A program made the translations under genes and the position numbers. Below the pieces are notes generated by a model, which saw only the letters and a program-made list of their open reading frames with translations, did no database searches and was not told where the DNA came from. From a virus, in IMG/VR virus record IMGVR_UViG_3300049846_002024, positions 1-20,048 of that record: 20,048 bases of DNA; one strand, written 5' to 3'. Below, in pieces: positions 7,170 to 10,519 of this stretch. How positions within the stretch are numbered: position 1 is the first letter of the stretch; the number at the start of each line of letters is the position of its first letter.

Positions 7170-7865
7170 CTATCTACCTAGGTGGCTTTCGATGTGTTCC
7201 CAGAGAGCGTCGCCGCTTAGGCCAATCAGCTTGCCGATTGCGTCCAAATCGTTCAGCAGGCGGTCGCTGCTCACCGTGTGGCTCAGAAGCAAGGGCTCCA
7301 TCGTCGGACAGTCGTAGGCGAGCTCGCGGAGCTTGGCGTACCAGTCAATGTCGTGCTTGGCGTAGTAGGCGCGCAGGAAGGCGCCCAGCACCCGAGAGGC
7401 GTCGTCGGCGTCTGCTGGGTCCATGCGGCGGCTTTCGCGCACTGGGAGCTGGCGTAGGCCGCAGAACGCTTCAAACATTCCTACCGGACCAAGTGCGAAG
7501 CCATCGCGGTCGAGCATGGGGATGGTGTGCTGCCACAGCTCCTTGAAGCGTTGCGGCAGTTTCGGTGGGTATCCCAGGGAGCTGGTGTCCTCAATCAGCT
7601 CCTCGGGGTGTCCGATGCTGCGAGCTAGCGCAGCGTTAAAGCAGCCCAGCGCCAGGAAGGTTTTGGGGGCCGGTTCCGTCAGTACGCCGCGGTTAAAGCC
7701 GCCGATGGTGCTGCTGTGGATCGCCTTCGTGCCCAGGTACTCCGTGGCGATCTTCATGAACTCTGTCTGGGTGAACTGCCCGCTCAGCGCCCGGAACGCA
7801 CTGGGGAATTGCAGGGCGCCCCGCTCAAGTGCGGTCAGCAGGGGTGGTGCCTGGTTTCCTTCCAT
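7170..7865 (-). CDS. HTH-domain phage regulator (repressor-like)
   Basis: I chose the ATG at 7865, giving 231 residues. An AGGG lies 8 nt upstream and the operator 16-mer (7873-7888) overlaps that leader. A TTG at 7892 and, more exotically, an ATT at 7943 behind a perfect Shine-Dalgarno are in-frame alternatives. Residues about 33-62 (QTEFMKIATEYLGTKAIHSS, then IGGFNRGVL) look like an XRE-type HTH. The C-terminal part (about 85-231) is helical and unrecognised, with no LexA-like Ser/Lys protease motif seen. It heads the early minus operon and is probably autoregulated through the operator. Confidence 0.6.
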   Translation of the reverse strand: MEGNQAPPLLTALERGALQFPSAFRALSGQFTQTEFMKIATEYLGTKAIHSSTIGGFNRGVLTEPAPKTFLALGCFNAALARSIGHPEELIEDTSSLGYPPKLPQRFKELWQHTIPMLDRDGFALGPVGMFEAFCGLRQLPVRESRRMDPADADDASRVLGAFLRAYYAKHDIDWYAKLRELAYDCPTMEPLLLSHTVSSDRLLNDLDAIGKLIGLSGDALWEHIESHLGR

Positions 7866-7872
7866 CTCGTTG

Positions 7873-7888
7873 ACCCTATGTAGGTAGG
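7873..7888 (+). promoter_or_regulatory. Operator-like 16-mer, copy 2
   Basis: ACCCTATGTAGGTAGG is identical to 211-226. It ends 8 nt upstream of the HTH regulator start codon and covers the likely ribosome-binding or transcription-start zone, as expected for an autoregulatory operator. Confidence 0.6.
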
Positions 7889-7960
7889 CCAAGAGTACAG
7901 GTGCGGAGCTGGGGAGGGGCGCATTTCTTTTTCCCCCTTTAATAAGTCACCTCCTTTGAG

Positions 7961-8165
7961 TGTCCGTGTTAGCTGAAACCCCTTGGGGGGTGAGGAGTTT
8001 GAACACGGACAGGTATCACGGTCTTACACGGACACTGTCCGCGCAACAACGATCCTTATTGAGAATGACCCCCAGTTATCACGGTCACTGTCCGTGTTCT
8101 GACCGAGATCATTTGGCCGTGTACTTTCCTTGCGCTGCATGGGATCTCGGCGATCACGGACACAA
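7961..8165. repeat. ACACGGACA iteron-like repeats with dyads
   Basis: TGTCCGTGTT (7961-7970) and AACACGGACA (8002-8011) form an inverted pair. CGGACACTGTCCG (8029-8041) is a palindrome around a central C. TGTCCGTGTT recurs at 8089-8098 and CACGGACACA at 8155-8164. TATCACGGTC is repeated at 8014-8023 and 8077-8086. CCGAGATC (8103-8110) pairs with GATCTCGG (8143-8150). Repeats in both orientations close to a helicase gene are typical of initiator-binding sites. Confidence 0.65.
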
Positions 8166-8220
8166 AAAGAGGGAGACTAATAAGGGCCTCCATCAAAAAG
8201 TGCGGGTTGTGCTGCCCCAG

Positions 8221-10470
8221 CTACACGACGTTGATGCCGTCGCCTTTGCTGGTGAGCATTTGCCGCGCACTGGTGCGGACTTGCAGCCGGGGGCGGTAGT
8301 GGAGCACCGTTTTGTTTTTGACGCGGGCGTTGGGGAGCGCTTCTGACTCGAGCACAGTCCCCACCAGCCGGTCCATGTACCGCCGCAGGGTGCGCTCGTT
8401 GAACTGAAGGTCCAGCAAGCTCATCCATTCGCTGGGGATGCGCCACTCGTCGTCGGTGACCCGGCGGAACGCGGCGCCAAGGGTTTCAAGTGGTGAGCTG
8501 TCGCCTTCGTTGGGGTTCATCCACTGCCAGATGCCGCTGTAGCCATCGCGGGTGACGTGCAGCTTGCGCCCCGCATAGCCGCCGCGGCTCTTCTCCACCA
8601 GCAGGTGGCGAGTCTTGTTGAACGACGGCGACGTTTTCTTCTGCTTGATGAGTTCGGGGTCGTAGTACACCCACATCTCTTCGCAGCTGGCCTTGATTTG
8701 CTCCGTGCCGCTGAACCGCAGGGGTTCGTCGCGGCTGGTGTGGTGCAGCACCATGAACGCCGCTTTGGGCCAGCTGATGCCGTTGTGGCGTACCAGCAGG
8801 CGGATGGGGTCGGCGTACGCAGGGTCGCCGATCTTCACGCCATGCACCGCCATGGACGCAAGGCAGTCGCAGATCACCAGATCCGGCGTGAACTCGCTCA
8901 GCGTCTGGACGATGGGGATCATGTCCTCAAACGTTGAACCAGATGAGATGCGCAGCCGGTCTGCGCACTCCTGAGGCTTGATGCCCTCAAGCACGAGGTC
9001 GCGCACCATGTCCTCATCGCTGCAATCGCTGGTGAGGATCAGCACGCGGCCGGGGGCATTGATTCCGTGGCGGGTGTTGCCAACGTCCACCGGCTGGCCG
9101 TTGAGGATGCGCCCAGCCAGGAAGCACGCCAGCGTCGTTTTGCCGCTGTGACTGCCACCCGCCAATACATGCACGCGCCGGGGGAGCAAGCCGTCGAGCA
9201 CATCTGATGCCACGTTGTCCGTGCGTCGAGCGTTGATGATTTCCTCCATGGTGCGGGGACCGCCGCTGCTCACCACGCCCAGGTACTGCTCCAGCCGCAG
9301 GCGGTACAGGTCCGAAGGGTCGACACCGAACTCCCGACGCGCCCGGCCTTCCCATGCCGCAAGCGCCGCGTGGTCGTGCGAGACCTCGTTCATCTTGTGC
9401 AGCATCTTTTTGAGCCCATCGACGTGCAGCTGGGCCTGCTCAATCGGAGGCAGCGACCACGTCGGCCACTGGAAGCCGTTGTTGCGGGCAAAGTGGAACA
9501 GCGAACCGATGCGAGCGCGTTGGTCCTCCGCAACGCTGCTGCGCGTCAGCGATGCGATGGTCTTCTCGGCGTTGTTGTTCTGGCCCCAGTCGTTGCGGGT
9601 GTTCCACTCGCTGTCCTCGACGATGGCGGTCGCAATGTCTCCACCGAACTCGTCAATCAGCCCGCAGATGATGCGGCGTACCTTCTCGTAGGTGCCGCTG
9701 CCACGCCCATCGCGATTTGGGCAAAACTCGAGTGCTTCCTTGGCAAGCTGCAACTTCTCGTGCGTCTTTAGGCGCTCCCAGGGCGTGGGGTCGTCCTCGC
9801 CGGAGCGGCGGCGCTCCTCCGGGCTGTCGGGAATTTGTTCGTCGAACTTGGCAATGATCCCCAGCAGTAGCCACTCGGGTGCGTCGGCCCACTGCACTTC
9901 AGCAGGTGAGTGGGCCTTCATCCACCGGTAGTACAGCGGGTGCTGGTGGGAGCTTTGGGGGTGGTCGCCGCAGATGACGGCATGGCGACCGGTGCCGGTG
10001 CCATTCATCCAGATGGCTTCGAGAACCACCTTGTCGTCGACTTTCCAGCTGGCGCTGCGGTTCTCGAGCTGGGGCCACCAGTGCGGAGGCACGCGCAGAA
10101 ACACCTTGCCGCGGCCTTTCTTGCCGCTCTCGTTGCACAGCGTGGCTGGCAACGTCTTGGGGCTGCGGTGGAAATGGTCGTGGAAGGCGCGTAGGGCCTG
10201 GGAGCCGGTGCCGTCGAAGTCCACGACCAGCAGACCGCCGCTTTCGGGCCCGGTGATGGCGCCTACCCCAATAAGTTTGCTGCTCTTCCACCGCTCGTAC
10301 GGGGTAGGGGATTTGTTGACCCGCAACACGTCTTCAAGGGTGCGACCGGAGCCCTTGTGGTTCCAGCCCTCCTCGAAACACACCTTGCTGTCGTCGTTGC
10401 CGCCGGTGAGGGCGTAGCGCCAGTGAGGTGGGAGCCCTTCCAGCAGGGCGGTTTGATCATCGCGGAGCAT
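8221..10470 (-). CDS. Phage primase-helicase (PrimPol-like N-terminus, RecA-like helicase)
   Basis: I chose the ATG at 10470 (749 residues); the frame is open to 10545, but that part covers the operator palindromes. Residues about 66-190 resemble a bifunctional primase-polymerase: GGLLVVDFDG has Asp 84 and Asp 86 as candidate metal ligands, with GKKGRGKVFLRVP and RHAVICG further on. Residues about 420-620 are a RecA-type ATPase, with Walker A GGSHSGKTT (Lys 444) and Walker B LVICDC (Asp 535), followed by VLHHTSR. The C-terminal 120 residues may be a winged-helix DNA-binding region (LQFNERTLRRYMDRLV). It would prime and unwind DNA for the phage polymerase transcribed divergently next door. No zinc-binding primase domain is seen. 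Confidence 0.85.
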   Translation of the reverse strand: MLRDDQTALLEGLPPHWRYALTGGNDDSKVCFEEGWNHKGSGRTLEDVLRVNKSPTPYERWKSSKLIGVGAITGPESGGLLVVDFDGTGSQALRAFHDHFHRSPKTLPATLCNESGKKGRGKVFLRVPPHWWPQLENRSASWKVDDKVVLEAIWMNGTGTGRHAVICGDHPQSSHQHPLYYRWMKAHSPAEVQWADAPEWLLLGIIAKFDEQIPDSPEERRRSGEDDPTPWERLKTHEKLQLAKEALEFCPNRDGRGSGTYEKVRRIICGLIDEFGGDIATAIVEDSEWNTRNDWGQNNNAEKTIASLTRSSVAEDQRARIGSLFHFARNNGFQWPTWSLPPIEQAQLHVDGLKKMLHKMNEVSHDHAALAAWEGRARREFGVDPSDLYRLRLEQYLGVVSSGGPRTMEEIINARRTDNVASDVLDGLLPRRVHVLAGGSHSGKTTLACFLAGRILNGQPVDVGNTRHGINAPGRVLILTSDCSDEDMVRDLVLEGIKPQECADRLRISSGSTFEDMIPIVQTLSEFTPDLVICDCLASMAVHGVKIGDPAYADPIRLLVRHNGISWPKAAFMVLHHTSRDEPLRFSGTEQIKASCEEMWVYYDPELIKQKKTSPSFNKTRHLLVEKSRGGYAGRKLHVTRDGYSGIWQWMNPNEGDSSPLETLGAAFRRVTDDEWRIPSEWMSLLDLQFNERTLRRYMDRLVGTVLESEALPNARVKNKTVLHYRPRLQVRTSARQMLTSKGDGINVV

Positions 10471-10519
10471 CAGTTTGGTAACGCGGCCAGGGAGAACGTA
10501 GCGGTGCCTGGCCGTGTCC

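Follow-up and report, generated by a model that had tools for sequence, protein, structure and literature searches.

The alpha protein of satellite phage P4 is a single polypeptide that combines primase and helicase with a winged helix at its C-terminus; through the winged helix it binds the repeats of its ori, and it then unwinds the DNA and primes it (PMC4234260). ORF904 of the archaeal plasmid pRN1 is likewise a primase-helicase-winged-helix protein; its origin immediately follows the gene for the protein on the 3' side and varies between relatives within conserved flanks (PMC4234260). In the PLE satellites of Vibrio, the DNA-binding domain of the RepA_N initiator and the ori are exchanged as a module, and the cognate pairing has been proven experimentally (PMC8263062). 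Here we analyzed a linear viral contig of 20,048 bp (IMG/VR record IMGVR_UViG_3300049846_002024, the whole record; hereafter the window), in which a repeat-filled, gene-free gap lies beside a gene for a predicted primase-helicase. Comparison with related phages makes it likely that the C-terminal winged helix of this primase-helicase binds the repeats as iterons and that the gap is the replication origin of the phage.

The proposed initiator is encoded on the minus strand at 8221..10470, and its ATG start codon at 10470 was fixed by comparison with relatives. A primase-like N-terminus, a RecA-fold (AAA_25) helicase and a C-terminal winged helix appear to be joined in one chain; the matches were to Pfam AAA_25 (E 1e-7), to the PHROG family 'DNA primase' (E 8e-9) and to the primase-polymerase of Synechococcus phage S-LBS1 (33% identity over 159 aa); the primase is assigned from weak similarity. 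The winged-helix domain (about residues 660-745; 8236..8493, minus strand) is predicted from an AlphaFold2 model and from fold matches. In the model of 117 residues, the predicted local distance difference test score (pLDDT) was mostly 85-95 over residues 31-100, with helices at 28-37, 47-53 and 60-70 and wing strands at 75-82 and 88-95. The domain matched winged helices of the PadR, ArsR, MarR and Zalpha types (Foldseek, VIA), although the best match was weak (Z 8.0). The P4 alpha domain was absent among the listed fold matches, which excludes nothing, and a search of solved structures by sequence, with the winged helix and with the whole protein, gave no match.

Like P4 alpha, the window protein is a predicted single chain with primase, helicase and C-terminal winged helix, with the repeats as its predicted target; P4, however, has a bacterial-type primase domain (PMC4234260), whereas here the helicase is of the AAA_25/RecA fold and the primase resembles phage primase-polymerases. 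As in pRN1, the proposed origin immediately follows the primase-helicase gene on its 3' side and varies within conserved flanks, but the pRN1 origin is a stem-loop of about 100 nt without iterons and its helicase belongs to superfamily 3. The likeness to PLE is that the DNA-binding domain and the proposed origin appear to have been swapped together (between contigs L024 and L025, below). RepA differs in that it is not described as a primase-helicase and in that it carries a DNA-binding domain from another family at its N-terminus; for PLE, two module types are described (PMC8263062), as against about nine site types here. S-LBS1 (MG271909, an isolate) is a freshwater cyanophage in which about 17 copies of TGCCTAACCT form an iteron-like array directly 3' of the related primase-polymerase (L135, 34237-34641); only about 21% of the window protein aligns with it, and the S-LBS1 helicase part appears unrelated. 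Repeats, iterons and a replication origin all go unmentioned in the paper on the S-LBS1 genome (PMC6157547). The same S-LBS1 region also holds a 127-bp direct repeat (34261-34387 identical to 34515-34641), perhaps an assembly overlap. The kind of system is thus already known; to the extent that we searched the literature, the mirrored array in these phages, the type of their initiator and how many specificities it comes in are undescribed.

The proposed origin region is the gap at 7863..8220 (358 bp, no strand assigned). A sequence-only reading of the window had placed it next to the primase-helicase, which it does adjoin; more exactly, it lies 3' of that gene and 5' of a gene for a protein of about 230 aa. 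The gap carries about ten copies of one site with the consensus TGTCCGTGTT. The five copies counted in that reading are real repeats, although the count becomes four exact matches to ACACGGACA or its complement (7961-7969, 8003-8011, 8026-8034 and 8089-8097) plus a pair of single-mismatch copies, ACACGGCCA (8114-8122) and TCACGGACA (8154-8162). Its two TATCACGGTC repeats are present at 8014-8023 and 8077-8086, but they are weaker copies of the main site (GACCGTGATA) rather than a second repeat; they retain the variable half and have lost the TGT, and relatives show the same at the same place. The 8-bp dyad at 8103-8110/8143-8150 is exact, but it is not conserved among relatives. Sites with at most two mismatches to TGTCCGTGTT number seven in the 358-bp gap, or 19.6 per kb, against 0.66 per kb in the remaining window, and the best 8-mer of the gap occurs nine times (at most one mismatch) against a maximum of five across 30 dinucleotide shuffles, confirming that the repeats exceed chance expectation. 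In this the locus resembles an iteron origin: a short site recurs several times within a small stretch free of genes, beside the gene for the proposed initiator.

We then gathered relatives by scanning viral contigs with the primase, the exonuclease and the 230-aa protein. The primase identity of these relatives ran from 84% down to 53%, with L127 at 24%. The gap was found at the same place, between the primase-helicase and the 230-aa gene, in 17 of 17 related viral contigs, and the array is conserved there. In nearly all 17 the site is repeated with a different sequence, while orientation and spacing are often preserved; the repeated site is clear in most and weak in L010, L119 and L120. The site is of type TGTCCGTGTT in the window, L002 and L003, TGTCCGAGAT in L004, TGTCCGAGTC in L005, TGTCCGATTC or TGTCCGGTTC in L008, TGTCCGAACT in L009, TGTCCCTGTT in L023, TGTCCGCCTT in L024 and L026, TGTCCCATCT in L119, L120, L121 and L134, TGCCGCACC in L124 and L125, and TGCCGGTAT in L025. 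There are about nine site types across the group, with copies alike inside one phage and unlike between phages. Copies that change in concert point to one protein that reads all of them, which is the usual cause. The sequence-only reading had taken the gap for a candidate replication origin that fits initiator binding or a replication switch, and would have dropped it if close relatives lacked the repeats and skew and coverage placed the origin elsewhere; the repeats proved to be present with concertedly altered sequence. The comparison supports initiator-binding iterons of a replication origin and indicates, as the initiator, the neighbouring primase-helicase with the winged helix at its C-terminus.

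The strongest evidence that the winged helix reads the repeats comes from a comparison of L024 with L025. These two contigs share 98.9% nucleotide identity over 6989 bp, then 517 and 494 bp, respectively, without detectable similarity, and then 98.2% identity over 4399 bp, so that they are about 98.5% identical across 11.4 kb outside a replaced block of about 500 bp. The replaced block comprises the gap together with the final ~87 primase codons; winged helix and array have been exchanged as one block in a conserved backbone. L024 has TGTCCGCCTT repeats and the recognition helix RSMRRYL, whereas L025 has TGCCGGTAT repeats and RSFTRYL. L026, from a different metagenome, carries the L024 type.

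This exchange also bears on whether the repeats could be operators of a transcriptional repressor of the downstream operon, be it an immunity repressor, the 230-aa protein or a ribbon-helix-helix protein, with the diversity of sites reflecting immunity types and no origin in the gap. The array does precede the 230-aa gene and the genes downstream of it, the 230-aa protein has a weak XRE-like fold match, and the gene for the ribbon-helix-helix protein comes next. Both proteins, however, are nearly identical between L024 and L025, where the repeats are wholly different and the primase winged helix changes along with them. Because they are nearly unchanged, the two proteins cannot be what fits the new repeats. 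We consider the repressor explanation quite unlikely.

Might the L025 exchange be an assembly chimera, and the concerted change elsewhere the ordinary drift of a fast-evolving region? The L025 cassette was seen in a single contig. Even a chimera would presuppose an existing strain in which the other cassette sits between the same flanks at both junctions. The junction leaves the reading frame intact, and L025 carries in its gap a consistent set of repeats of its own. Moreover, L002, L008, L004 and L005 show the same coupling through small changes, and drift leaves unexplained both the concerted copies and a matching lone site 2.3 kb away (below). This explanation seems to us very unlikely.

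Close relatives of the window show the coupling in small residue changes. Among L002, L004, L005 and L008 the mean pairwise difference was 0.04 in the primase against 0.38-0.44 in the wing, and no other part of the primase varies so much among close relatives. This hypervariable wing (residues 709-724; 8299..8346, minus strand) tracks the repeat type. Eleven residues group the window, L002 and L003 against L004 and L005, the same grouping as that of the repeat classes, and ten of them fall in residues 658-722. When 371 windows along the primase were scanned with overall divergence removed, the site's variable half correlated best with the wing (713-725; 0.63 against a mean of 0.06 and a standard deviation of 0.20), a result that also speaks against a separate repressor, and the helix-turn-helix (679-692) was the top correlate of the whole site. 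The scan lends modest support to a link between wing and site.

A site like the lineage's own also occurs before the primase gene. In the window this lone site (TGGCCGTGTC; 10509..10518, plus strand) lies 5' of the primase start, in the divergent primase/polymerase promoter. Similar sites were found in about 10 of 16 lineages, 18-57 bp and most often 48 bp before the primase start; in 10 of 16 the match reached P <= 0.012 against 60-bp windows of the same contig, and in eight lineages the own type scored highest of all site types. At 2.3 kb from the gap, the match is not explained by local duplication. The simplest reading is that the primase-helicase would feed back on its own gene through this site and so regulate its own synthesis.

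If so, the primase-helicase might bind the repeats mainly for transcription control, of its own gene and of the downstream operon, with replication beginning elsewhere. The matching sites in the divergent primase/polymerase promoter fit this, as does the position of the array in the next promoter region. We nevertheless hold it to be unlikely: the DNA-binding domain is fused to a primase-helicase, the mirrored array lies directly 3' of its gene, and P4 alpha and pRN1 provide precedents (PMC4234260). Regulation and origin use may also coexist.

The array of the window has a mirror layout. Its ten best sites form five mirror pairs around 8062.5 (P ~0.0005 against random placement). The outer pair lies at 8153 and 7961, and the other eight sites form two clusters of four, spaced 14-11-11 and 11-10-13 bp. 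From the primase side, the outer site TGTCCGTGAT (8153..8162, minus) is followed by cluster 1, composed of TGGCCGTGTA (8114..8123, plus), a weak TGACCGAGAT (8100..8109, plus) that overlaps one arm of the 8-bp dyad, TGTCCGTGTT (8089..8098, plus) and TGACCGTGAT (8078..8087, minus). Cluster 2 consists of a weak TGTCCGCGCA (8036..8045, plus), TGTCCGTGTA (8025..8034, minus), a weak AGACCGTGAT (8015..8024, minus) and TGTCCGTGTT (8002..8011, minus), and the second outer site is TGTCCGTGTT (7961..7970, plus). All five pairs are mirrored in the window, L004 and L005, and four of five in L002, L008, L023 and L025 (P 0.0005-0.015). The clusters are separated by a centre of 42-43 bp in the window and in L002, L004 and L005, whereas L008 has 31 bp there and L023 has 65 bp. 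The steps between these lengths come to roughly one and two turns of the helix and suggest that the complex is phased. At the mirror centre lies a dyad-like element, CATTCTCAATAAG..TTGTTGCG (8042..8067, minus strand), which is kept in the closest relatives and partly in L023; the middle of the array reads CATTCTCAATAAG..TTGTTG. In the mechanism that we propose, the primase-helicase would bind the ten sites as two facing four-site clusters and two outer sites, the mirror layout would bring a pair of helicase complexes into head-to-head position above the central element, and these complexes would open the duplex and prime both strands.

Repeats in both orientations are common in partition, packaging and recombination loci, and the array could be such a site. 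Yet no such gene is adjacent, the co-varying domain sits in the primase-helicase, and the cassette exchange disfavours it; we find this explanation scarcely credible.

A number of observations weigh against an origin read by the winged helix. The site-type seeds were picked by eye, and L010 and L120 have few clear copies. Six residues of the primase, all in the C-terminal domain, group the window with L004 and L005, which makes this domain a mosaic. Primase windows 327-342, 479-492 and 571-584 scored nearly as high as the wing in some versions of the scan, and in a flank test the whole P240 and p212 proteins correlated as well as the whole wing region. In a hands-off k-mer test of co-variation the wing was not significant (partial r -0.05, P 0.65), and the helix-turn-helix windows ranked high, not first. 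The mirror symmetry was not significant in the nine other lineages tested (L009, L010, L024, L119, L120, L121, L124, L125 and L134), and the central dyad is missing from distant relatives. L024 and L025 have no matching site before the primase, and the L025 cassette is known from one contig. Finally, the GC skew of two relatives of 44.4 and 48.4 kb tracks gene direction and does not mark the gap.

The best explanation would be that the primase-helicase acts as its own initiator on these iterons, in the manner of P4 alpha, and that the proposed origin and the DNA-binding domain make up an exchangeable specificity cassette, as reported for RepA and ori of PLE. More tentatively, and at something short of an even call, the winged helix and the mirrored array may, in the freshwater cyanophages of this group, diversify and be exchanged as a unit that keeps co-infecting relatives or parasites from using one another's origin, with a readable wing-to-base code and complexes assembled head to head. 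If the origin reading is true, a group of uncultured cyanophages gains a defined replication origin and an initiator, and about nine natural initiator/origin specificities become available in which protein and DNA changes can be aligned residue by base. Origin typing, known in plasmids and in PLE satellites, would then also diversify ordinary phages. One would have to ask which selective force drives it; incompatibility among co-infecting phages, satellites and origin-targeting nucleases are candidates.

Other features of the gap were examined. As a candidate AT-rich unwinding element, a 30-bp stretch of 67% AT near 7923 ranks among the top 38 of 20,018 windows, but it lies outside the array, the centre of which is only moderately AT-rich. 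A sigma-70-type promoter was sought in the gap and none was found. Two flanking elements were noted by inspection: D1 (GAGATCCCATGCAGCGCAAGGAAAG; 8124..8148, minus strand), to which most relatives, and also S-LBS1, have a related sequence in the corresponding position, and D2 (AAACCCCTTGGGGGGTGAGGAGTTTGAA; 7976..8003, plus strand), roughly an inverted copy of D1. We had considered D1 and D2 as primase hairpins like ssiA/ssiB of RSF1010 and dropped the idea since their predicted hairpins are weak in the window. A terminator-like hairpin with a T run (8172..8191, minus strand) lies at the end of the primase transcript. Similar hairpins lie just past the primase stop in many relatives (L119, L120, L134, L002, L008), several of them stronger than that of the window, and the array seems to be shielded by them from read-through.

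The dyad CATTCTCAATAAG(N3-7)CTTATTGAGAAT, found in the window at 8055-8067, also occurs outside the phage group: near-perfect copies lie in gene-poor stretches of about 56 viral contigs (loci L028-L087), and looser ones in the T4-like Synechococcus phages S-RSM4, S-WAM2, S-B43 and S-H9-1. We take it to resemble iron-box half sites.

Family searches of the window identified genes for the primase-helicase, an exonuclease, ThyX, a serine recombinase, an RpoD-like sigma factor and an endolysin; a DNA polymerase I-like protein was assigned by reading its translation, without a family search. This gene set and the distant similarity to S-LBS1 suggest that the window comes from a cyanophage of fresh water that carries an integrase-like recombinase. 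Bacterial genomes were scanned twice, with the primase and exonuclease alignments, and no relative, hence no host, was found. The 230-aa protein (7170..7862, minus strand), whose promoter would fall inside the gap, adjoins the proposed origin throughout the phage group. A family search with it gave no match; its model is all-helical (pLDDT 89.5) with weak XRE-like fold matches, and it is possibly an XRE-like regulator. The gene for the ribbon-helix-helix protein comes after it.

A second motif, CTACCTA / GGTAGG, occurs in the window at 219, 6898/6911, 7174, 7881 and 10520/10537, often as inverted pairs. GGTAGG..CCTACC pairs were sought in the retrieved loci and none was found. In the window the motif lies just 5' of early-gene starts, namely those of the 230-aa gene, the ribbon-helix-helix gene, p212 and primase/polymerase, and it is possibly an operator or promoter element.
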